Assembly (NCBI GenBank): GCA_002104905.1
Contig: MCFE01000692.1
Coordinates: 1-44,552, forward strand
Length of the DNA stretch: 44,552 bases
Direction: 5' to 3'
Source: Basidiobolus meristosporus CBS 931.73
Lineage: Eukaryota; Basidiobolomycota; Basidiobolomycetes; Basidiobolales; Basidiobolaceae
Shown here piece by piece: positions 9,229 to 44,552 of the stretch; the stretch's first letter is position 1; each line of letters opens with the position of its first letter. A program made the position numbers and the translations under genes. The notes under the pieces are model-generated. The model did no database searches. It saw only the letters and a program-made list of their open reading frames with translations, and was not told the origin of the DNA.

Positions 9229-9577
9229 TGTTGTAACAGTCTTGGAGATATTGGAAGTGATTGGGAGAACAAGTAGATTGTATGATTGTCACTTAATAAT
9301 TTATTGAATGTAAAAGTAGTATTTATACTTTTACCTGGTCATGGCATTACAAGCACGTAGAGTTGGTTAAGGAAGGTCCCAAGTGCATGTGTGCAAAGTT
9401 TGGGGCTGTTTGGATAACTTATCTAATTTTCATGTTCTGGGTATCTGGTATTTTGGTGAAAATATTCCCTGTAAATCCTGACAAGGAATTTGGTCAGTAT
9501 TCCCTAGGATTGGAAGGTAATGATCTAAGTGACTAAGCTAGGTGAATATTTAGGTCAAATTACAAATTTTTACAACA
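9229..9577 (-). repeat. Copia 5' LTR (right copy)
   Basis: A 349-bp LTR bounded by the perfect inverted termini TGTTGTAA and TTACAACA, followed by the TATTT target duplication. It is the upstream LTR for the minus-strand element and lies directly against the primer site. Confidence 0.9.
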
Positions 9578-34900: not shown

Positions 34901-35720
34901 GTTGGTCATTAGACTTTGCCGTTTGTCTATTGGTGAAGCGGCAATTGTCCTTTCTGTTGGCTGATCTGATCTCGATCCGTATGCTGGCTACTCTATCATT
35001 CATCACCGACACTTCTCATTACTAACCTCTGATGATCGTATCGACAACGTCGAAAGTCACAACTGTGTAGTCGGTTTTTCATAGAATGATCAAATACTCG
35101 ATTCTACATATGTTCCTAGCGTGATCAGAATAAATAATCAGTAATATATTATCATTCCCTATCACTCGATCATCTATCTTTCTTTACGCCAATTTCGAAG
35201 CAAATATTGCCGTAGACGTAGTTGTACTGGTATTTATTGAACACTGCCCTTCATAAGCACTATTGGATATCGACACATACTGCTTTGATGTATGCGAAAG
35301 TGATTACAGGAATCGTCTGTGGAAGTACATATTAACTGGTGTTCTGTCTTATTTGCCCGCTTCCACTATTTATGGAATATAGTAGTTCTCATGCTTATCG
35401 GATGTGAAGAAACGATACCGTTATGGTCAAGCACAACTACAGGTAGCTCACATGAGTCTGATTAGAGTCATACCAGTATAGAGTATGGATTCCTGATGTT
35501 AGCAAGTAGGTCCCTAGCCTCCAACCTGATCAAGTGAACCCGTTGGGTAGTATGGTGTAGCACAAGCATATCTAATGGATATACCTTCCATAACGGTAGA
35601 CTCAGCTCTGTACCAAAATGGTTATATTTGCGTTGTACCACCAGCATGTTGTGTGCAATTCCTCATATAAATAAGCCTGCCTGTAATCCAAGATTGACCA
35701 TCTCACAATCTCTATATACA
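31967..35720. other. AT-rich region, no gene recognised
   Basis: About 3.7 kb between copy B and the UNC93-like gene. Frames of 60-103 codons exist (such as 32019-32330, 33502-33774, 34566-34868), but none has family motifs or a convincing exon structure. Near matches to the iron-GATA core (TTCTGATAA near 34662 and 34890) lack the first base. A TCACGTGA site lies near 34188. Confidence 0.4.
35666..35673 (+). promoter_or_regulatory. TATA box of the UNC93-like gene
   Basis: TATAAATA 55 bp before the ATG at 35721, the same sequence and distance as at deaminase copy B. Because it lies downstream of the earlier possible start codons, it supports 35721 as the true start. Confidence 0.5.
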
Positions 35721-37022
35721 ATGAGGCTTAATTCTCCAATGATGCAGGTCATATTAGTTGGCTTTGCATGTTTCTGCTGCCCGGGTATGTACAATGTAAT
35801 CAACAGTCTAGGTGCCGGAGGACAGATGGACGACAACACCACTAAGAATGGTAATGTTGCTCTTTACGCTTGCTTCTCTGTATTTGGTGTGTTCGGTGGG
35901 GCCATTCACAATGTCCTCGGTGGGCGTTGGACTATGGTTAGCGGCGGTCTCACGTACGCACTGTACTCTGGTTCCCTTGTATATTATAGCAACACCAAAG
36001 AGCCCACCTTCGTCATTATTGCTAGTGCAATTCTAGGTATTGGTGCTGGTATGTTCTGGACTGCCCAAGGTACAATTATGATGTCCTATCCATCCGAGAA
36101 TCAGAAAGGCCGCGCAGTCGGAATCTTCTGGATTATTTTCAACATGGGCGCCGTACTCGGTTCTTTCATTCCCTTCGGCCTCAACTTCCATTCCTCAGCA
36201 GGACAAGTGAGCACCGCTACCTACTATGTATTGATGGCACTTATGGTTATTGGTGCTCTGCTTGGCTTGGGCCTCATTCCCCCCGAGAGGGTAGTACGCG
36301 AGGATGGTTCCCGTGTGCAAGTCTCCAAATTTGAAAACGTCGGTGGTGAGATCATTGAGATCCTGAAACTATTCAAGAACAAGAACATGCTCTTGCTCCT
36401 CCCCTTGTGCGTCACTTCCAACTGGTTCTACTCTTATCAGTTCGGTGCTGTAAATGGTGTTCTTTTTAATGTTCGTACCCGCTCATTCAACAGTGCCTTC
36501 TACTGGGGTGCTCAAATGATTGGCGCCTATGGGGTGGGTCTGTTGCTCGATAATCCCAAGCTTCAGCGTCGCACTCGTGCCTTATACGGACTTGCTCTGG
36601 TAACCGTACTAACAATGATCATATGGGGCGGTGGTCTTGGTCTTCAAGTACAATATACTCGGGAAGATCATCCTAAAGACATCGATTTCATCAACGGCCC
36701 AGGATGGGGCGGCAAGTTTGCCTTATATCTGTTCTACGGTTTTCTGGATGCCGTTCTACAAACTTATGCTTATTGGTTAATGGGTGCTCTCTCTAATGAC
36801 AGTCACGTCCTTGCTCGTTATGCTGGATACTACAAAGGACTCCAATCTGCTGGCGCGGCTATTGCCTGGGATATTGATGCTAAGAATACTCCTTTCTTGA
36901 CTCAGCTGATCATCAACTGGGTACTGTGCACAGCCTCCCTTCCTTTTGCTTACATTGTAGCCAGAGGTGTCAAGGATACCTCAGAGGAGGATGGTGAGAA
37001 GGTCGAGATGGAAAAGTCTTAA
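35721..37022 (+). CDS. UNC93-like major facilitator superfamily transporter
   Basis: Intronless gene, 433 aa from the ATG at 35721 (MRLNSPMMQVIL). The frame is open further upstream to 35628, but that part is not hydrophobic and contains the TATA box. About 11-12 hydrophobic segments span the protein, with the early pattern GFACFCCPGMYNVINSLG and ALYACFSVFGVFGGAIHN typical of the fungal UNC93-like (DUF895) family. A central cytoplasmic loop (about residues 195-230) separates two six-helix halves, and the tail is acidic. Substrate unknown for most fungal members; plasma membrane or vacuole possible. AATAAA at 37073. No exact iron-GATA site is upstream, so I do not include it in the iron module. 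Confidence 0.88.
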   Translation: MRLNSPMMQVILVGFACFCCPGMYNVINSLGAGGQMDDNTTKNGNVALYACFSVFGVFGGAIHNVLGGRWTMVSGGLTYALYSGSLVYYSNTKEPTFVIIASAILGIGAGMFWTAQGTIMMSYPSENQKGRAVGIFWIIFNMGAVLGSFIPFGLNFHSSAGQVSTATYYVLMALMVIGALLGLGLIPPERVVREDGSRVQVSKFENVGGEIIEILKLFKNKNMLLLLPLCVTSNWFYSYQFGAVNGVLFNVRTRSFNSAFYWGAQMIGAYGVGLLLDNPKLQRRTRALYGLALVTVLTMIIWGGGLGLQVQYTREDHPKDIDFINGPGWGGKFALYLFYGFLDAVLQTYAYWLMGALSNDSHVLARYAGYYKGLQSAGAAIAWDIDAKNTPFLTQLIINWVLCTASLPFAYIVARGVKDTSEEDGEKVEMEKS

Positions 37023-37464
37023 CCAAATATGTTACCGCATGAATGTCATGCCCATTTTATTTAATGCAATTTAATAAACCAAAGTTATTTAGTAGTTATG
37101 AGTATTCAACTCAAGTACAAGCACCTTTCTTTTTCAAGTATAGTGTAGAGGGAATCTAGTGAATGCCGTGGTTTGGAATAGCTACATTGCATGTGTAATA
37201 AAGGTCACATGTCCATATTACCCCGGAGAAACAAAACGGAAAACCTGTTCATCACATTTGCATTCAGAAATTCGGGTGGTCAGTCAACTCCTATTGTTGC
37301 GATTGGAATGATTCACCTACTGAACCTGAAGTAGAAAGACGAGATATCATTTAGCATTAGGATCGCTTGGTTTGAGAAGGGAGTGCTGCGAAGTATTTCA
37401 CGTGAGCAATGCAAAAATACGTACTGAGGAGAGTAAACAGTGGAATAACAATTCGAAATTCTGG
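37023..37464. other. 3' flank of the UNC93-like gene
   Basis: Non-coding, with a poly(A)-like AATAAA at 37073-37078. It ends where copia similarity starts abruptly near 37465. Confidence 0.5.
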
Positions 37465-38094
37465 ATTTGCTCTATCTGGCTTATGGTATATATCATAGTC
37501 AGCATTGCTCCTTTTGAAACTCAAAGATTCCAAATCAGAATCTAACATGCAATTCCAGGCTATTGGTGATTGTTTGAGTATAAATAAAGACTTTTTAAGC
37601 TTGCAGACCAGATGGAGGTTATCTTGAGCAACAAAACCATCCGGCTGGTCCATACACATGTCCTCATCAAGTTCTCCATTCAAAAATGCAGTTTTTACAT
37701 CCATTTGATGTATAAAAAACTTATGTTTGGCTGCAATAGCCAATATTAATCTAATGGAATTAAACTTGGCTGCTGGTGCAAAGATCTCAGTATAGTCAAG
37801 TCCTTTTGTTTGAGAGTATCCTTTGGCCACAAGTCTTGCTTTGTATTCTTCAATTGAACCATCTGCATCCAATTGATTTCTGGTTGATTGGTAATTTGAC
37901 TAAGTCCCAAGTTTGATTTTCCATCAAGGCCTGATATTCCTCAGTCATTGCAGATCTCCAAAATTTCAACTGATGGCTATTTAGGGCCTATTTTACAGTC
38001 TGGGGTTCATCAATATGAACTGAATAGGCATAGGCTAAGTTTGTACCCTCATTGATATAGTAATTTGGGCTATTTCTTGTCTAATTGGATCACC
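37465..38094 (-). pseudogene. Truncated copia pol fragment at the subtelomere boundary
   Basis: Matches the element at 7290-7960: reverse transcriptase N-terminal part with KTAFLNGELDEDM and the integrase-RT linker (AMTEEYQALM, MENQTWDL). It is less decayed here, reading through sites that are stops in the first copy, but still broken near 37870. Both ends are abrupt. The left meets unrelated sequence, the right is cut after GGATCACC by TTAGGG. Confidence 0.88.
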
Positions 38095-39243
38095 TTAGGG
38101 GGGAGACAGTTGCCAACAGGTGAAATCTTTATTTCAGTTGAAACAAAGAAGCCAGCACTACTGTTGTAGCTTTGATACAAGAGTGTGTAGCTGCGGGGAA
38201 TTTGTAGGTAAGTTAATAAGAAGTGATGATAGTTCTTCAGTGCTCAAGACACTGTTCAGTGGGAAGGGGGGTAGCAAGAGAGGTAAGAATGACTTGTGAA
38301 CAACATTAATGAGGGGAATGTGATAAGGATTGATATTCATCATAAAGGGAGTGTGCTGCTGCAGATATTGCTGCCAAAGGTCTGTCAAGTATTTCAGGTA
38401 GGCCAGCTTGGGTTTTTCTAACTGCAGAATATAGTGTGCAAACTTCTTAACTTCAGGATCTCCAAGTATAGTTCTCCAGCAGGAGCCAGGTGTAGTGTGA
38501 TGTGTTCTCTTCCAGGCCTTAATCAGTGGGTTGTTGCAGTGGTGAAGTCTGAGATATAATCTGGTTCTAAGGTAGAGAAGTCTGATCTTATAGGGCATAA
38601 ACCCAAAAGCACCAAGAATAGCATGTCTGTAGGGGCATTCAGGCAAATGAGGCACCAAGGAGGTAATGCACCATACTGCAAACTTGTCAAGATTAGTGCA
38701 GTCTCTAGAAGTAAGAGAGAGAAGTGGTAAGCCAGACTCCAGGACAGGGAAGACAAACTGCTTGAGTAGAAGGAGGCAGCTGGGAGCTGAAGTTGTTGGA
38801 GGAGTAACAGCCAGTAGCTTGTGGAGTGCCTGTCTTGCCAGGATAATTCTCTTCTTCAGGTGTGCTCCAGAGTCTAGTCCAGTAGGAAGGAAAGGAAAGC
38901 CAAGATATGTAGCAGAAACCTGAGCAGGTAGAGTGGAGTTCTCCAAGTTGATGGGAGAGCCCAAAGGTACTGTCTTTGCAATGGAAAGCTGGAGATTATT
39001 CTTCTGCAGATACTGGTGGATGGTCTGGGAGTCTTGTTGCACATTGGAGGAGGATATTCTGATGTCATCAGCAAAGAGAGTAACCAGGCAGTCAGCTGAG
39101 AGTCTTGGGAAATCATTCAGGAAGATGGCAAACAGTATAGGACCAAGCACAGAGCCTTGAATCACTCCATTAGGAGCTGAGAACACAGCTGATTGCTCAC
39201 TTGGGTGAAGAATCCTTGCTTGTGGATCTAGAAACAGAGACCT
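38095..39243 (-). mobile_element. 5'-truncated telomeric LINE, proximal copy
   Basis: TTAGGGGGG (38095-38103) is followed by the LINE 3' tail and the C-terminal part of ORF2 on the minus strand. The open frame 38158-39186 covers the distal half of reverse transcriptase, including the FADD catalytic motif, plus the C-terminal domain. It is very similar to 40669-41810 of the distal copy. The element is truncated at 39243 after AGAGACCT and is followed directly by TTAGG TTAGGGG. Its 3' hairpin has a mutation (TTGCC instead of TCACC). Not autonomous. Confidence 0.9.
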
Positions 39244-39255
39244 TTAGGTTAGGGG
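39244..39255 (+). repeat. Short telomeric junction
   Basis: TTAGGTTAGGGG between the truncated LINE 5' end and the tail of the first SINE; one and a half degenerate telomere units. Confidence 0.75.
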
Positions 39256-39749
39256 AGGAAAGTCACCAAGTGGTGAAATCTTTATTTACTTATGACAAGT
39301 ATACAAAGAAGCCAAGTTAATCTGAAGTAATTCCTAGAAAGCTAGGTCTGAGAGATATCTACCGGGTAAGCCAGGCCTGAGAGTTGAGAAGCTGAGTGGT
39401 ACTATATTTCCTAGTTAGCTAGGTCTGAGAGAGGTTTCCTGGAAAGCCAGGCCTGAGAAGTGAGAATCTGAGTATATCTGAGGTGAGTTGTACTGATTTG
39501 CGGTAGCATGTTTGTGGCCAGAATGGCCAGTAGACTGGGGGAACTGAGGGGTATTTCTGGGCGATCACTGGCCAAATTTACTAGGCAAATCTGACCAATT
39601 AGCATTTCAAGGATTTCAGCCAATCAGAGCCTTTACTTTGCCCGATGGTTAATCAAGCCATCTCCCAATGAGCACACGTCAATTTATTGATCAAATTTTG
39701 CTGGATCCAGGATTTGAACCCACAACCATGGGTATGGGAGGGTTAGGGG
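39256..39749 (-). mobile_element. tRNA-derived SINE, copy 1
   Basis: Minus-strand element, 3' tail at the left and tRNA-like head at the right. It contains the body hairpin repeats (the second is degenerate), the conserved stretch GGATCCAGGATTTGAACC (reverse complement of the B box) near 39700, and ends within the head at an internal GGTTAGGG, where the next unit begins. The A box is lost. Confidence 0.82.
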
Positions 39750-39781
39750 AGGGAAAGTCACCAAGGTAGGTGAAATCTTTA
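39750..39781 (-). mobile_element. Tail-only retroelement fragment
   Basis: Only the terminal 32 bp of the shared LINE/SINE tail are present (GTCACC...GGTGAAATCTTTA), flanked by TTAGGGG on one side and a run of TTAGGG on the other. It looks like a reverse transcription event that stopped almost at once. Confidence 0.7.
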
Positions 39782-39824
39782 TAGGGTTAGGGTTAGGGTT
39801 AGGGTTAGGGTTAGGGGGGGGGGG
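39782..39824 (+). repeat. Interstitial telomeric repeats
   Basis: Five to six TTAGGG units ending in a run of 11 G before the next SINE tail. Confidence 0.9.
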
Positions 39825-40117
39825 AGGAAAGTCACCAAGTGGTGAAATCTTTATTTACTTATGACAAGTATCTAAAGAAGCCAAGTTAATCTGAAGTAAT
39901 TCCTAGAAAGCTAGGTCTGAGAGATATCTTCCTGGTAAGCCAGGTCTGAGAGTTGAGAAGCTGATTGGTACTATATTTCCTAGTTAGCTAGGTCTGAGAG
40001 AGGTTTCCTGGAAAGCCAGGCCTGAGAAGTGAGAATCTGAATATATCTGAGCTAAGTTATACTGGTTTGCGGTAGCTGAATTGTGGGCGGAATGGCCAGT
40101 AGACTAGGGGAACTGAG
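39825..40117 (-). mobile_element. 5'-truncated SINE, copy 2
   Basis: Same tail and four body hairpins as copy 3, but truncated at GAACTGAG (40117), where copy 3 continues for over 500 bp in total. The truncated end joins GGTTAGGGTTAGGG directly. Confidence 0.85.
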
Positions 40118-40134
40118 GGTTAGGGTTAGGGGGG
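40118..40134 (+). repeat. Interstitial telomeric junction
   Basis: Two TTAGGG units with an expanded G run between SINE copies 2 and 3. Confidence 0.85.
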
Positions 40135-40651
40135 AGGAAAGTCACCAAGTGGTGAAATCTTTATTTACTTATGACAAGTATCTAAAGAAGCCAAGTTAAT
40201 CTGAAGTTATTCCTAGAAAGCTAGGTCTGAGAGATATCTTCCTGGTAAGCCAGGTCTGAGAGTTGAGAAGCTGAGTGGTACTATATTTCCTAGTTAGCTA
40301 GGTCTGAGAGAGGTTTCCTGGAAAGCCAGGCCTGAGAAGTGAGAATCTGAATATATCTGAGCTAAGGTATACTGGTTTGCAGTAGCTGAATTGTGGCCGG
40401 AATGGCCAGTAGACTGGGGGAACTGAGATGAATTTCTGGGCAATCACTGGCCAAATTTACTAGGCAAATCTGACCAATTAGCATTTCAAGGATTTCAGCC
40501 AATCAGAGCCTCTACTTTGCCCGATGGTTGATCAAGCCATCTCCCAATGAGCACACATCAATTTATTGATCAAATTTTGCTGGATCCAGGATTTGAACCC
40601 ACAACCATGGCTATGGAAGGGTTAGGGATAACCACAAGGCTAAGTGTTCTT
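40135..40651 (-). mobile_element. tRNA-derived SINE, full-length copy 3
   Basis: About 517 bp on the minus strand. The head (right end) shows an RNA polymerase III A box, TAGCCTTGTGGTTA (consensus TRGCNNAGYNGG), and a B box, GGTTCAAATCC (consensus GGTTCGANTCC), followed by an acceptor-stem-like TGGATCCAGCA. The middle holds four tandem hairpins (40212-40330). The tail has AAATAAAGATTTCACC, the hairpin at 40142-40155, and a C run that continues into CCCTAA. The tail resembles the LINE tail, so the LINE reverse transcriptase probably mobilises it. No coding capacity. Confidence 0.85.
40212..40330 (-). repeat. Four tandem covarying hairpins in the SINE body
   Basis: Hairpins at 40212-40225, 40241-40254, 40289-40302 and 40317-40330. 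The stems alternate CCTAG/CTAGG and CCTGG/CCAGG around four-base loops, each followed by TCTGAGAG or CCTGAGAA. The A-T to G-C swap on both stem sides is a compensatory change, so pairing rather than sequence appears conserved. Confidence 0.8.
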
Positions 40652-40668
40652 GGTTAGGGTTAGGGGGG
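40652..40668 (+). repeat. Interstitial telomeric junction
   Basis: GGTTAGGGTTAGGGGGG between the head of SINE copy 3 and the 3' end of the distal LINE. Confidence 0.88.
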
Positions 40669-40722
40669 AGACAGTCACCAACAGGTGAAATCTTTATTTC
40701 AGTTGAAACAAAGAAGCCAGCG

Positions 40723-43491
40723 CTACTGTTGTAGCTTTGATACAAGAGTGTATAGCTGAGGGGAATTTGTAGGTAAGTTAATAAGAAGTGATGATAGTTC
40801 TTCAGTGCTCAAGACACTGTTCAGTGGGAAGGGGGGTAGCAAGAGAGGTAAGAATGACTTGTGAACAACATTAATGAGGGGAATGTGATAAGGATTGATA
40901 TTCATCATAAAGGGAGTGTGCTGCTGCAGATATTGCTGCCAAAGGTCTGTCAAGTACTTCAGGTAGGCCAGCTTGGGTTTTTCTGACTGCAGAATATAGT
41001 GAGCAAACTTCTTGACTTCAGGATCTCCAAGTATAGTTCTCCAGCAGGAGTCAGGTGTTGTGTGGTGTGTTCTCTTCCAGGCCTTAATCAGTGGGTTGTT
41101 GCAGTTGTGAAGTCTGAGGTATAATCTGGTTCTAAGGTAGAGAAGTCTGATTTTATAGGGCATAAACCCAAAAGCACCAAGAATAGCATGTCTGTAGGGG
41201 CATTCAGGCAAATGAGGCACCAAGGAGGTAATGCACCATACTGCAAACTTGTCAAGCTTAGTGCAGTCTCTAGAAGTAAGAGAGAGAAGTGGTAAGCCAA
41301 ATTCCAGGACAGGGAGGACAAACTGCTTGAGTAGAAGGAGGCAGCTGGGAGCTGAAGTTGTAGGAGGAGTAACAGCCAGTAGCTTGTGGAGTGCCTGTCT
41401 TGCCAGGATAATTCTCTTCTTCAGGTGTGCTCCAGAGTCTAGTCCAGTAGGAAGGAAAGGAAAGCCAAGATATGTAGCAGAAACCTGAGCAGGTAGAGTG
41501 GAGTTCTCCAAGTTGATGGGAGAGCCCAAAGGTACTGTCTTTGCAATGGAAAGCTGGAGATTATTCTTCTGCAGATACTGGTGGATGGTCTGGGAGTCTT
41601 GTTGCACATTGGAGGAGGATATTCTGATGTCATCAGCAAAGAGAGTAACCAGGCAGTCAGCTGAGAGTCTTGGGAAATTATTCAGGAAGATGGCAAACAG
41701 TATAGGACCAAGCACAGAGCCTTGAACCACTCCATTAGGAACTGAGAAAACAGCTGATTGCTCACTTGGGTGCAGAATTCTTGCTTGTGGATCCAGAAAC
41801 AGAGACCTGACAAGGAGGGTGAGAGAGGTACTGGAGAAGCATTGCAACTTGGACCAAAGCAGATTTCTGTCAACTGAATCAAAGGCCTTAGTAATATCAA
41901 ACAGAACAGAGGGATACTTGCACTGGAGAGAGTGATCTTGGCTAAGTATGACTGCATATTCCAAGGAGAGGCCAGGAACAAAGCCAAACTGTGCAGGATG
42001 AAACTTGAGAGAGTCAGAGTAGAGCTCCTGAGCAAGCAGAAGCTCAAACACCTTTCTGCAGGTGGGCAGCAGAGATATTGGCCTGTAGGAGCTAGGATCC
42101 AGGTGCTTTCCTTTACCCTTGTACAGTGGCAGAACATTTGCAAAGGACCATTCCTCAGGAGTAGAAAGCTGGGCTGAGCATTGCTGAAACAGTGGAAGCA
42201 GAAGTGCCGACATGGCCTTGGTACTAGTCTTCAGAAGCTCATAGGAGATTGTGTCCACACCTGGAGCAGTAGAGTTGGGAAGCCTCTTGAGCACATTATG
42301 GATTCTCCTTTGATCAAGTGCAAGTGGGATGGGCAGAGTCTTGAAGTCAGGATGAAAGCCAGGAGTTGAGTACTGCTTTGTAGAGAAGAAGATGTTAGCC
42401 AGCTGTTCTGTTGAAGGTAACTTCCTGGAAGAGGGCCTCATTGCCCTGTAGAGTCTTGATACTGTTCTTGTTATAGAGTTGGAAGATTGCAGAGGCAAGG
42501 AACTCATAATATGATCCCAGAGCTGAGTATGCAGAGTGTGGTGAATTGCCTTGGAGTGGTGTATTGCTGTCAGGAGGAGTTTCTCTGTTTTTGGGTTAGG
42601 GAAGCTCAGGTAGCTTTGTTGCAGGGCTGAAACAATGGATTCCCATTTTCTTGAGGTACCAGCAGTAGTCTTGCATGGCAGTGAGAGGGAGGCAGACACC
42701 AGAATAAGATGCTTCACAAAGAGCCAGGCAAAGTTGAGATCATCTGGCTGAGAAAGTAGCAAACTGGCAAGCTTCAAGTAGTTCCCAAAGTCTTTCTTCT
42801 GATTCTTGGTAGCTTTGTGGGTGAGCACAGTAAGTTTTGGCAGCTTCTTCTTCACAACTGGTTGCATAGAAAGGGACCAGGCTGGGTGGTCAGAGGCTCT
42901 CAAGGATCCTAGCTCAGCTCCAGAGAATTGCTTAACTTCATTCACAAAGTAGAGGGCAGCAGCAGAAGGGCAGATCCAGTCAACACATCTTTTCTCAGAT
43001 TGAGCACCTAGTGCTAGCAGGTGGCTTTCTCTCAGGAAGTTCAGTAGGAATGTAGACCTTGGCTTCATTCTTGCAGTCAGAGTAGTCTTGTTCTCAGGAT
43101 GGGGAATGTTGAGATCTCCAAGCAAGATAACAGGTGTTGATATAGATTGTTGGTATTGCTGAACCTTTTGGCATATAACTTGCACTTCCTGAAGGGCTAG
43201 ACTTGGAGGCAGATAGCAGAGCACCAGACTGATAGTTGGCAACTGGAGAGCAGCACAGTAAGGGGAGTAAAGAGGAACACAGAGCTGAGGAGTATTGATG
43301 GTAGAAGAGATGAAGCAGATAGAGGAGGTATTCTTTGTTCTAGGAGTAGAAAAGCAATATAGATTAGTCAAAAGTATAGAGGGTAGCTGGACATCAATCA
43401 AACACAGGAGGGAAAATCTTGAAAGAAGTCTCTCTAGAGTTGGTCTTGATGGCTGTATGCTGTTGCAGTTAAGCAACAGAACTTCAGGTAG
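40723..43491 (-). CDS. LINE ORF2: APE-type endonuclease and reverse transcriptase
   Basis: Residues counted from the TTG at 43476. Endonuclease about 1-200: LNCNSI at the start, GDLN (120-123), VDWICPS, SDHP (195-198). Reverse transcriptase about 395-680: YRPISLLPTCRKVFE, FDITKAFDSVDR, NGVVQGSVLGPILF, and catalytic FADD (613-616). The C-terminal about 240 residues are a typical LINE thumb/connector; I see no RNase H and no zinc knuckle. There is no ATG until residue 137, inside the endonuclease. The frame is continuous with ORF1 through one TGA, and the endonuclease start (EVLLLNCNSI) begins right after it, so translation by readthrough is likely. The usual LQE catalytic Glu region reads CLIDVQLP, so Glu may be replaced by Asp. 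Confidence 0.93.
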   Translation of the reverse strand, partial: LPEVLLLNCNSIQPSRPTLERLLSRFSLLCLIDVQLPSILLTNLYCFSTPRTKNTSSICFISSTINTPQLCVPLYSPYCAALQLPTISLVLCYLPPSLALQEVQVICQKVQQYQQSISTPVILLGDLNIPHPENKTTLTARMKPRSTFLLNFLRESHLLALGAQSEKRCVDWICPSAAALYFVNEVKQFSGAELGSLRASDHPAWSLSMQPVVKKKLPKLTVLTHKATKNQKKDFGNYLKLASLLLSQPDDLNFAWLFVKHLILVSASLSLPCKTTAGTSRKWESIVSALQQSYLSFPNPKTEKLLLTAIHHSKAIHHTLHTQLWDHIMSSLPLQSSNSITRTVSRLYRAMRPSSRKLPSTEQLANIFFSTKQYSTPGFHPDFKTLPIPLALDQRRIHNVLKRLPNSTAPGVDTISYELLKTSTKAMSALLLPLFQQCSAQLSTPEEWSFANVLPLYKGKGKHLDPSSYRPISLLPTCRKVFELLLAQELYSDSLKFHPAQFGFVPGLSLEYAVILSQDHSLQCKYPSVLFDITKAFDSVDRNLLWSKLQCFSSTSLTLLVRSLFLDPQARILHPSEQSAVFSVPNGVVQGSVLGPILFAIFLNNFPRLSADCLVTLFADDIRISSSNVQQDSQTIHQYLQKNNLQLSIAKTVPLGSPINLENSTLPAQVSATYLGFPFLPTGLDSGAHLKKRIILARQALHKLLAVTPPTTSAPSCLLLLKQFVLPVLEFGLPLLSLTSRDCTKLDKFAVWCITSLVPHLPECPYRHAILGAFGFMPYKIRLLYLRTRLYLRLHNCNNPLIKAWKRTHHTTPDSCWRTILGDPEVKKFAHYILQSEKPKLAYLKYLTDLWQQYLQQHTPFMMNINPYHIPLINVVHKSFLPLLLPPFPLNSVLSTEELSSLLINLPTNSPQLYTLVSKLQQ

Positions 43492-44357
43492 TCAGGCAGA
43501 GGTTGTAGCTTCTTCAGAGGCAGCATTAACAATGTGACCTGCAGAGTCCCAGAGCTCTTCAAATGGTGCATCACTTAAGTCAGCAAGGAGGGAAATGGCA
43601 TGATTCTTGAGGAAGTATGCCACATCATAGGAGGGGGCTTGTCTCTTGATGGCAGCAAAGAAAGACAGAATGGCAACATGGGCTGGAGGCTTGTTGAACA
43701 GTAGAGAGTCAGAGGATTCAGATTCTTCAGGCACTATCTTGAAGTCAGTTTTCAGCCAGTTAAGGTTCTTCTCCACAAAGGCAACAAATGGGTCAGCAAT
43801 GTTTTGGTCTAGGATAACCTCCAGAATCTTCCCTTTTCTCCAGGCCAGGTTGACAATTCTTGAGAGCTGAATATTGCATGCCTTGAGTGCTTTCCTGATG
43901 TTGGAAATGGGGGTCCAAGGAACTTGCTTCAAGTACACCACAGTCCAGGTAGAAGCTGGTGGTAGGTTTGCTGGGGGCTTGTAAGTCCTTCTGTGTTGCA
44001 ATGGAGCTGCAGTAGTCAGATTGGAGTCCACATTCTCAGTAGAAGGTTTTCTTGATGTGTCTTGCTGAATAGTACTGGAGCTGGATGTGCTGATAATTCT
44101 TGCTAGAACCTTGCCTGCATAAGTCTGAGGTATAGCTGAGGTGACTGTAGAGGTGGTGGCAGCTGGTGCAGGTGGAGAGGCAGAGACTGAAGCAGGAACT
44201 GAGGTCACCTGGGAGAAGGCAGTAGAAGCAGATTTTCTGGGAGGAACAGAGTTCACTATCCAGTTGTTCTGTAAAACACTGGAGTAGCTTTTCTGTGGAA
44301 CAGGATCTTGCTCTTGAACAGGAACAGAAGCAGGAGGCTGGGGCTGAGCAGTAGTGG
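43492..44357 (-). CDS. LINE ORF1, 5'-truncated by the telomere
   Basis: Gag-like RNA-binding protein fragment, at least 254 aa. The N-terminal part is Ser/Thr/Pro/Ala-rich and low in complexity. A fold resembling a small RRM-like domain follows (WTVVYLKQVPW to KILEVILDQ), as in other LINE ORF1 proteins. It ends at TGA (43492-43494). No ATG start is present: the frame passes upstream through SYSSVLQNNW and PQPPAS and stays open into the telomere repeat as Leu-Thr codons. The native start is therefore missing. No CCHC knuckle seen. Confidence 0.85.
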
Positions 44358-44552
44358 TAAGGGTTAGGGTTAGGGTTAGGGTTAGGGTTAGGGTTAGGGT
44401 TAGGGTTAGGGTTAGGGTTAGGGTTAGGGTTAGGGTTAGGGTTAGGGTTAGGGTTAGGGTTAGGGTTAGGGTTAGGGTTAGGGTTAGGGTTAGGGTTAGG
44501 GTTAGGGTTAGGGTTAGGGTTAGGGTTAGGGTTAGGGTTAGGTTAGGTTAGG
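44358..44552 (+). repeat. Terminal telomere array (TTAGGG)n
   Basis: About 31 TTAGGG units reading toward the right end, so this is the chromosome end with the G-rich strand as the 3' strand. The last bases change to TTAGG units, either variant repeats or a sequencing or assembly edge effect. Confidence 0.97.

Follow-up and report, generated by a model that had tools for sequence, protein, structure and literature searches.

Chains of LINE and SINE units stand at contig ends throughout the assembly of Basidiobolus meristosporus CBS 931.73 (89.0 Mb, 1311 contigs), and our analysis confirms them as real and genome-wide. Their polarity, terminal location, 5' truncation and join structure can be read directly from the contigs, as can the loss of the distal flank at one break and a telomerase domain. 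We propose, with a probability of roughly 60%, that LINE and SINE RNA is reverse-transcribed from the 3' ends of chromosomes wherever these are free, be it naturally or through breakage, and that telomerase re-caps the product.

The window (the whole 44,552-nt stretch that was analysed) ends in such a chain. Reading and aligning its last 8 kb gave, from the inside outward, a LINE, a SINE, a tail fragment, two SINEs and a LINE, followed by (TTAGGG)n up to position 44552 (Table 1). As the preliminary description had it, these are six units in one orientation with their 3' ends facing the centromere; all lie on the minus strand, beneath a (TTAGGG)n cap. It had also placed every truncation at the 5', distal side, which holds for the units that are cut; since the SINE of unit 5 is full length, not all units are truncated. 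Unit 1 joins the copia fragment beneath it through a single TTAG, unit 3 belongs to a tail family other than those of the window's LINE-A and SINE, and the 5' truncation of unit 6 is evident from a copy on contig C3 with at least 715 additional 5' bases. We found no near-identical second copy of the window end, the best other match being 89%. A gene adjoining the chain encodes an UNC-93/MFS protein that matches a protein of B. meristosporus CBS 931.73 (phylum Basidiobolomycota) with 98% identity across 93% of its length.

Table 1 Features of the terminal chain and its elements in the window (coordinates in nt)
Feature	Position	Strand	Basis and remarks
Ty1/copia reverse transcriptase fragment	37357..37872	-	RVT_2, E = 2.6e-41; host sequence beneath unit 1
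Unit 1, LINE-A, 5'-truncated	38095..39243	-	LINE q2552-3700, 97.7%; RVT_1 in ORF 38158-39186
Unit 2, SINE, nearly full length	39252..39748	-	SINE q6-502, 94.6%
Unit 3, 3' tail of ~37 b, B/C-type family	~39746..39782	-	Alignment
Interior (TTAGGG)n tract with G-run, separating units 3 and 4	39783..39820	+	Repeat search (39782-39816), reading
Unit 4, SINE, 5'-truncated	39821..40117	-	SINE q206-502, 98.0%
Unit 5, SINE, full length	40131..~40660	-	Reference copy; 5' end compared with other copies
B-box-like sequence, SINE head	40589..40599	-	By eye
A-box-like sequence, SINE head	40632..40642	-	By eye
Unit 6, LINE-A, ~3.7 kb, 5'-truncated	~40660..44359	-	Alignment
3' hairpin of LINE and SINE tails	40675..40688	-	57-nt LINE end, -12.4 kcal/mol, z -3.95
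LINE-A ORF2, 917 aa, APE-like endonuclease and reverse transcriptase	40723..43476	-	RVT_1, 3.1e-25; Exo_endo_phos_2, 3.1e-4
LINE-A ORF1, partial, 254-aa open frame	43492..44256	-	ORF list
Terminal (TTAGGG)n tract	44360..44552	+	Repeat search

A complete LINE-A measures at least 4.4 kb. Its Exo_endo_phos_2 match lies below the Pfam cut-off (21 vs 27.4 bits), the GDLN and SDH motifs of the endonuclease are conserved in the alignment, and a Pfam search of ORF1 returned no match. Five close relatives are database proteins located on contigs shorter than 6 kb. A second LINE lineage, family E, is 28% identical to LINE-A over a 389-column stretch with the reverse transcriptase, matches both RVT_1 and Exo_endo_phos above cut-off, and has a 3' end unlike that of LINE-A. 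We assign both lineages to the APE type by RVT_1 and the N-terminal APE-like domain; their Pfam searches gave nothing beyond the APE-like and reverse transcriptase domains (the CRE clade carries a REL endonuclease). The family E endonuclease reads LAETWF at its motif, and GDLN/GDIN and SDH are conserved in both lineages. At the ET/SE motif site, all three LINE-A-group rows that cover it (the window, P0001 and P0003) have Asp and 11 other alignment rows have Glu, P0005 falling short of the site; the glutamate of this motif is catalytic in the endonuclease. Tail types other than these number at least three (B, C and D).

The SINE, about 530 b long, has its 3' tail and hairpin in common with LINE-A and appears to use the LINE machinery: the LINE reverse transcriptase presumably recognises the hairpin, and the SINE would be mobilised by the LINE. 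The hairpin stem is almost invariant among units, with the reservation that the unit motif itself required this hairpin; we therefore make no claim of covariation. In the SINE head we noted by eye an A-box-like and a B-box-like sequence; ARAGORN (0 hits) and Rfam (none) gave no tRNA match in the SINE.

To place these elements in the genome, we searched all contigs for the 16-base tail shared by LINE-A and SINE and for the two ends of LINE-A. Distances to contig ends rest for most contigs on lengths interpolated from the length-rank numbering, into which the known lengths fit monotonically; the interpolation gave small negative distances at 3 of 100 LINE-A 5' region places. The match lists run from low contig numbers and are not random samples. 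The tail occurs 1555 times forward and 150 times in reverse, its reversed control 0 times. The LINE-A 5' region matched 110 times forward and once in reverse (100 of these 111 matches listed); all 73 listed matches on contigs longer than 60 kb have the end that they face at most 25 kb away, and for 71 of them the distance is at most 10 kb, where a uniform spread would leave about 8%. Among listed matches on contigs of this size, the LINE-A 3' end (599 forward, 43 reverse; 100 of 642 listed) is no farther than 25 kb from the faced end in 38/38 cases and no farther than 10 kb in 32/38, and the shared tail (100 of 1705 listed) in 36/36 and 30/36, respectively. No listed LINE-A 3' end or shared tail on these contigs lies less than 25 kb from the wrong end, and across the three lists (100 matches each) we saw neither internal copies nor mixed orientation at one end on contigs longer than 60 kb. 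Scored in this way, the listed copies on such contigs are terminal and outward-facing, as the preliminary description would have it, and its own refutation test did not go against it; because they face the nearer end and the reversed control is empty, the chain is not a product of chance. On contigs shorter than 60 kb position is weakly informative, and some copies lie more than 10 kb from the faced end.

The reverse-strand copies on C27, C80 and C543, when read, proved to sit on contigs that face the other way. Contig C291 carries arrays near both ends, each facing outward; telomeres are absent from the assembled contig, and as an exception a truncated LINE has about 1.3 kb of gene-like sequence, not telomeric, on its distal side. 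Family E occurs at 27 places in total, and all 20 on contigs longer than 40 kb are within 15 kb of the faced end, with 3' ends repeatedly about 1.0 kb from the ends of several contigs. Truncation of LINE-A is common, as the exact 3' end matches 642 times and the 5' region 111 times (a rough ratio, the patterns being unequal in length). Two LINE fragments, C27:5910-6168 and C1:324565-324714 (75%), are without a 3' end of their own.

We also approached the telomeres without reference to the LINEs, using a pattern for the start of a terminal tract that matched 108 times forward and 3 times in reverse; 100 of these 111 matches were listed, and they fall on 96 contigs. The base preceding the tract start was C in 54, T in 40 and A in 6 of the listed matches, the three letters that the pattern allows. 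The first 30 listed formed our sample: 29 forward on 28 contigs, of which C95 has an interior tract only, and one in reverse, on C35. A forward terminal tract is present on 27 contigs, and reading placed a unit of the LINE/SINE families directly beneath the telomere in 20, a copia-like sequence in 3 and other sequence in 4, one of the latter tRNA-like by eye. The sampled loci contain 27 tail matches forward and 0 in reverse, two of them counted twice where loci L084 and L085 overlap. Cut points of the outermost units vary widely, and the telomere repeats start there. On C926 the reverse tract proved to be a telomere that opens the contig, and a family B unit faces it; on C35 and C595, reverse telomere tracts lie away from the contig edge. 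Terminal tracts span 143-297 b (median 208 b, about 35 repeats; 28 of 30 loci). Contig C880 encodes a TERT RNA-binding domain in two pieces above cut-off, one of which has a TAG inside it, possibly an intron.

The joins between host and element offer the closest view of how units were added. We examined 67 units on 25 contigs, collected with a unit motif that required the hairpin and misses, for example, unit 1 of the window. Counting TTAG repeats from host to element, 9 joins have none, 36 have one, 15 have two and 7 have three to seven; at least one repeat is thus present at 58/67, and at most two at 60/67, compared with about 35 in terminal tracts and an expectation of about 8% for insertion at random sites in a tract. 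In three of the zero-repeat joins, sequence resembling TTAGGG or TAGGG occurs a few bases farther upstream, and a fourth is cut off where its locus ends. The elements differ in the length of the G-run at their 3' end (LINE-A: mode 6, range 5-10, n = 27; SINE: range 3-11, n = 20), as if the primer slid on a C-run. As raw counts, the host end shares 1-4 nt with the telomeric phase at 21 of the 42 unit joins that could be placed (of 67) and at 12 of the 21 placed telomere joins (of 36); the other placed unit joins comprise 4 without any shared base, 10 with additional bases that are unmatched, and 7 ambiguous cases. Of 66 joins sampled, 65 are distinct.

One end carries a LINE on a broken gene. 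At C1:341877 an ABC-transporter-like gene (by eye) stops at TTCAGG, and GTTA, a G-run and LINE-A follow. The distal side of the break on C1 is made up of LINE and one LINE fragment, with about 40 b of a different sequence amid TTAGGG repeats and then the telomere. Among the pieces examined, contigs C1241 (97%) and C476 (94%) pass intact through the position of the break and are 95% alike beyond it; the gene on C1 does not resume. By comparison, LTR-like inserts (TGTTG...CAACA) of 696, 350 and 698 b split LINE-A on C27, C62 and C355, each with a 5-b duplication and with LINE-A resuming on the far side, so that internal insertion is visible when present.

Under the mechanism that we favour, a chromosome end would become exposed when a telomere is short or when the chromosome breaks, whether within a gene, within a copia element or within a unit added earlier. 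Its G-rich 3' end would carry one or two TTAGGG repeats and pair with the run of C in which the RNA ends at its 3' side; telomerase may have synthesised the first TTAGGG, or the CCCUAA end of the RNA may have provided it. The LINE reverse transcriptase would recognise the 3' hairpin common to LINE and SINE tails and then copy the RNA outward until it stops, an early stop leaving the unit 5'-truncated at the tip. Telomerase would re-cap the end, or further LINE or SINE RNA may be added before it does. The preliminary description's proposal that the G-strand 3' end primes and telomerase caps is supported in part, by a TERT domain and by junctions that resemble additions to free ends; priming from an end without a nick, as opposed to priming at a nick, and the order in which telomerase and the LINE act, we infer. 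Several observations run counter to end priming: both LINE lineages retain an endonuclease domain for which it would have no need, and 7/27 sampled telomeres rest on other sequence; the gene-like sequence distal to a LINE on C291, the two LINE fragments without their 3' ends and the placed unit joins with additional or ambiguous bases are further exceptions. A broader and distinctly tentative extension is that several APE-type LINE lineages and a SINE form a second, endonuclease-independent way of healing and lengthening ends in a telomerase-positive fungus, in which any exposed 3' end, broken genes included, might receive one or two TTAGGG and then LINE or SINE cDNA, the tip becoming an ordered record of repair.

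The main rival is nick-primed insertion, in which the APE endonuclease cuts the G-strand within (TTAGGG)n, a unit inserts, the end erodes, telomerase heals it and the next unit inserts. We consider it rather unlikely, but live. The APE-like domains with their GDLN/GDIN and SDH motifs fit this scheme, as does the TTAG repeat at most joins, and the available portion of PMC5537684 describes SART/TRAS as APE-type elements that insert in this way. The same model has been proposed for FoTeR (excerpts of PMC12857005) and is suspected for MoTeR (excerpts of PMC7367193), where a new truncated MoTeR1 was observed one TTAGGG unit from the telomere boundary. Against it stand the brevity of the junction tracts relative to the terminal ones and the change from Glu to Asp in the endonuclease motif of the three LINE-A-group proteins that cover the site. 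The first of these points is softened by MoTeR arrays, in which the spacing between units ranges from half a repeat to over 20 and interior tracts break when they exceed 3 repeats (excerpts of PMC7367193), so that insertion followed by breakage could also yield short junction tracts.

Alternatively, true retrotransposition events may have been few, with break-induced replication and other recombination in the subtelomeres having spread and reshuffled the arrays. MoTeR arrays are documented to spread in this way (excerpts of PMC7367193), subtelomeric gene copies recur at several contig ends, and the recurrent distance of about 1.0 kb for family E 3' ends would suit it. Shared joins should then be common, whereas nearly all sampled joins are distinct and truncation points are widely spread, which makes this reading improbable. 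Least credible of all is an assembly artefact, or a mere gathering of scattered ordinary LINEs near ends. The contigs are short and telomere tracts lie almost entirely on the plus strand (8002 vs 103), but polarity relative to the end is kept on the reverse contigs C27, C80, C543 and C926 and at both ends of C291, and scattered LINEs would place only about 8% of copies within 10 kb of the faced end.

If priming from free ends is correct, telomerase and retrotransposition onto ends, usually seen apart, would be joined in one genome, with a SINE taking part, and hundreds of end events would be readable in it. Whether LINE reverse transcriptases use chromosome ends as primers alongside telomerase would become testable, a question that bears on the relation between telomerase and retrotransposons. 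Our data also suggest that fungal telomeres have been colonised by non-LTR elements outside the CRE clade. The preliminary description considered telomeres of APE-type LINEs and SINEs new in a fungus. This agrees with the open-licence literature (bioRxiv preprints excluded), where titles and beginnings of abstracts yielded no APE-type LINE or SINE at fungal telomeres, and with open-licence titles and abstracts on Basidiobolus telomeres, which held nothing on LINE/SINE chains; the claim needs narrowing, as telomeric non-LTR elements of the same polarity and with 5' truncation are known in fungi (MoTeR, FoTeR and Cnl1, all CRE). The available parts of PMC12857005, PMC7367193, PMC8381367, PMC4700185 and PMC5537684 do not describe a SINE adding to telomeres. 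A mixed telomeric community of APE-type LINEs and a SINE would be a new form of such elements.

Among known systems, HeT-A/TART/TAHRE of Drosophila likewise form chains at chromosome ends with the 3' side proximal, but Drosophila is the telomerase exception, whereas Basidiobolus has a TERT domain and (TTAGGG)n. Zepp of Chlorella, GilT/GilM of Giardia and Athena of bdelloid rotifers are further chromosome-end retroelements, of lineages other than the Basidiobolus LINEs. The available excerpts present Athena as endonuclease-deficient Penelope-like elements at telomeres, and those on GilT/GilM, Zepp and Athena make no mention of a SINE partner. GilT/GilM resemble our arrays in running in the same direction at the ends, with some 5' truncations (excerpts of PMC5537684). 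SART/TRAS of Bombyx and Tribolium are, like the Basidiobolus LINEs, APE-type and telomeric in hosts that keep their repeats (excerpts of PMC4700185 and PMC5537684); unlike what we propose, they insert inside telomere repeats via a specific endonuclease, and the copies reported from Bombyx telomeres are all full-length (excerpts of PMC4700185), whereas truncation is common here. FoTeR of Fusarium oxysporum and Cnl1 are also fungal telomere-associated non-LTR elements, but of the CRE clade with a REL endonuclease, and FoTeR 3' ends are typically followed by 3.0-7.0 telomere repeats as against mostly 1-2 in Basidiobolus (excerpts of PMC12857005). MoTeR1 and MoTeR2 of Magnaporthe oryzae share most with our chains according to the available excerpts of PMC7367193: they lie head to tail with the 5' side distal and TTAGGG between units, their 5' truncations are healed by telomere addition with seed nucleotides, and they pair an autonomous with a non-autonomous member. 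They differ in their REL endonuclease, CRE type and telomere-like terminal run, where the Basidiobolus LINEs are APE-type and of several families; moreover, MoTeR2 shares both terminal sequences with MoTeR1, and the same excerpts are silent on any SINE identity, whereas the Basidiobolus partner has a tRNA-SINE-like head by eye. In behaviour the closest precedent is MoTeR; among elements with an APE endonuclease it is SART/TRAS, and in the mechanism that we infer it is HeT-A/TART.

Telomere repeats lie almost exclusively on the + strand of the contigs (8002 matches vs 103 in the whole assembly), and the contigs therefore seem to have been oriented by the assembler or submitter. At the ends of contigs C249 (locus L079), C114 (L072), C285 (L081) and C352 (L087), the telomere repeats join the underlying sequence directly, without LINE/SINE units, an arrangement that suggests plain telomerase healing; on C249, the sequence directly beneath them appears by eye to be tRNA-like. 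At the start of C291 (L104), ~1.3 kb of gene-like, non-telomeric sequence (positions 1-1328) lies distal to a 5'-truncated LINE. Telomere repeats are absent between the two, and this start may represent a rearranged or internalised chromosome end. The reverse tracts of C35 and C595 are possible interior telomere relics (see table).

Features on other contigs and in the window
Feature	Position	Strand	Remark
(TTAGGG)5 tract	C35:17741-17771	reverse	not at contig edge; among tract-start matches listed
(TTAGGG)5 tract	C595:4444-4474	reverse	not at contig edge; among tract-start matches listed
UNC-93/MFS gene	window 35628-37022		member of large family
Family E 3' end and short unit	C23:18927-19970		3' end recurs at similar distances on seven other contigs

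Family E, the second LINE lineage, shows recurrent 3' ends ~1.0 kb from the ends of C23, C45, C293, C351, C427, C880, C968 and C1017. The C23 unit is short (~0.8 kb), its 5' part consisting of tandem repeats that contain TTAGGG pieces; it is perhaps a non-autonomous E element, or else a chromosome end common to several contigs. The UNC-93/MFS gene has 43 matches in the assembly, several of them near contig ends, and C600 carries a tandem cluster of this family.

Copies of LINE-A, the LINE family of the window, are interrupted by LTR-like inserts of 696 b on C27 (L039), 350 b on C62 (L068) and 698 b on C355 (L090), each flanked by 5-b duplications; window positions 9229-9577 resemble the C62 insert (89%). 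On C354 (L089), a unit of family B, a further 3'-tail type, carries a ~101-b tandem repeat close to its 5' end. This repeat recalls the variable tandem repeats recorded for FoTeR, the telomere-associated non-LTR element of Fusarium oxysporum.
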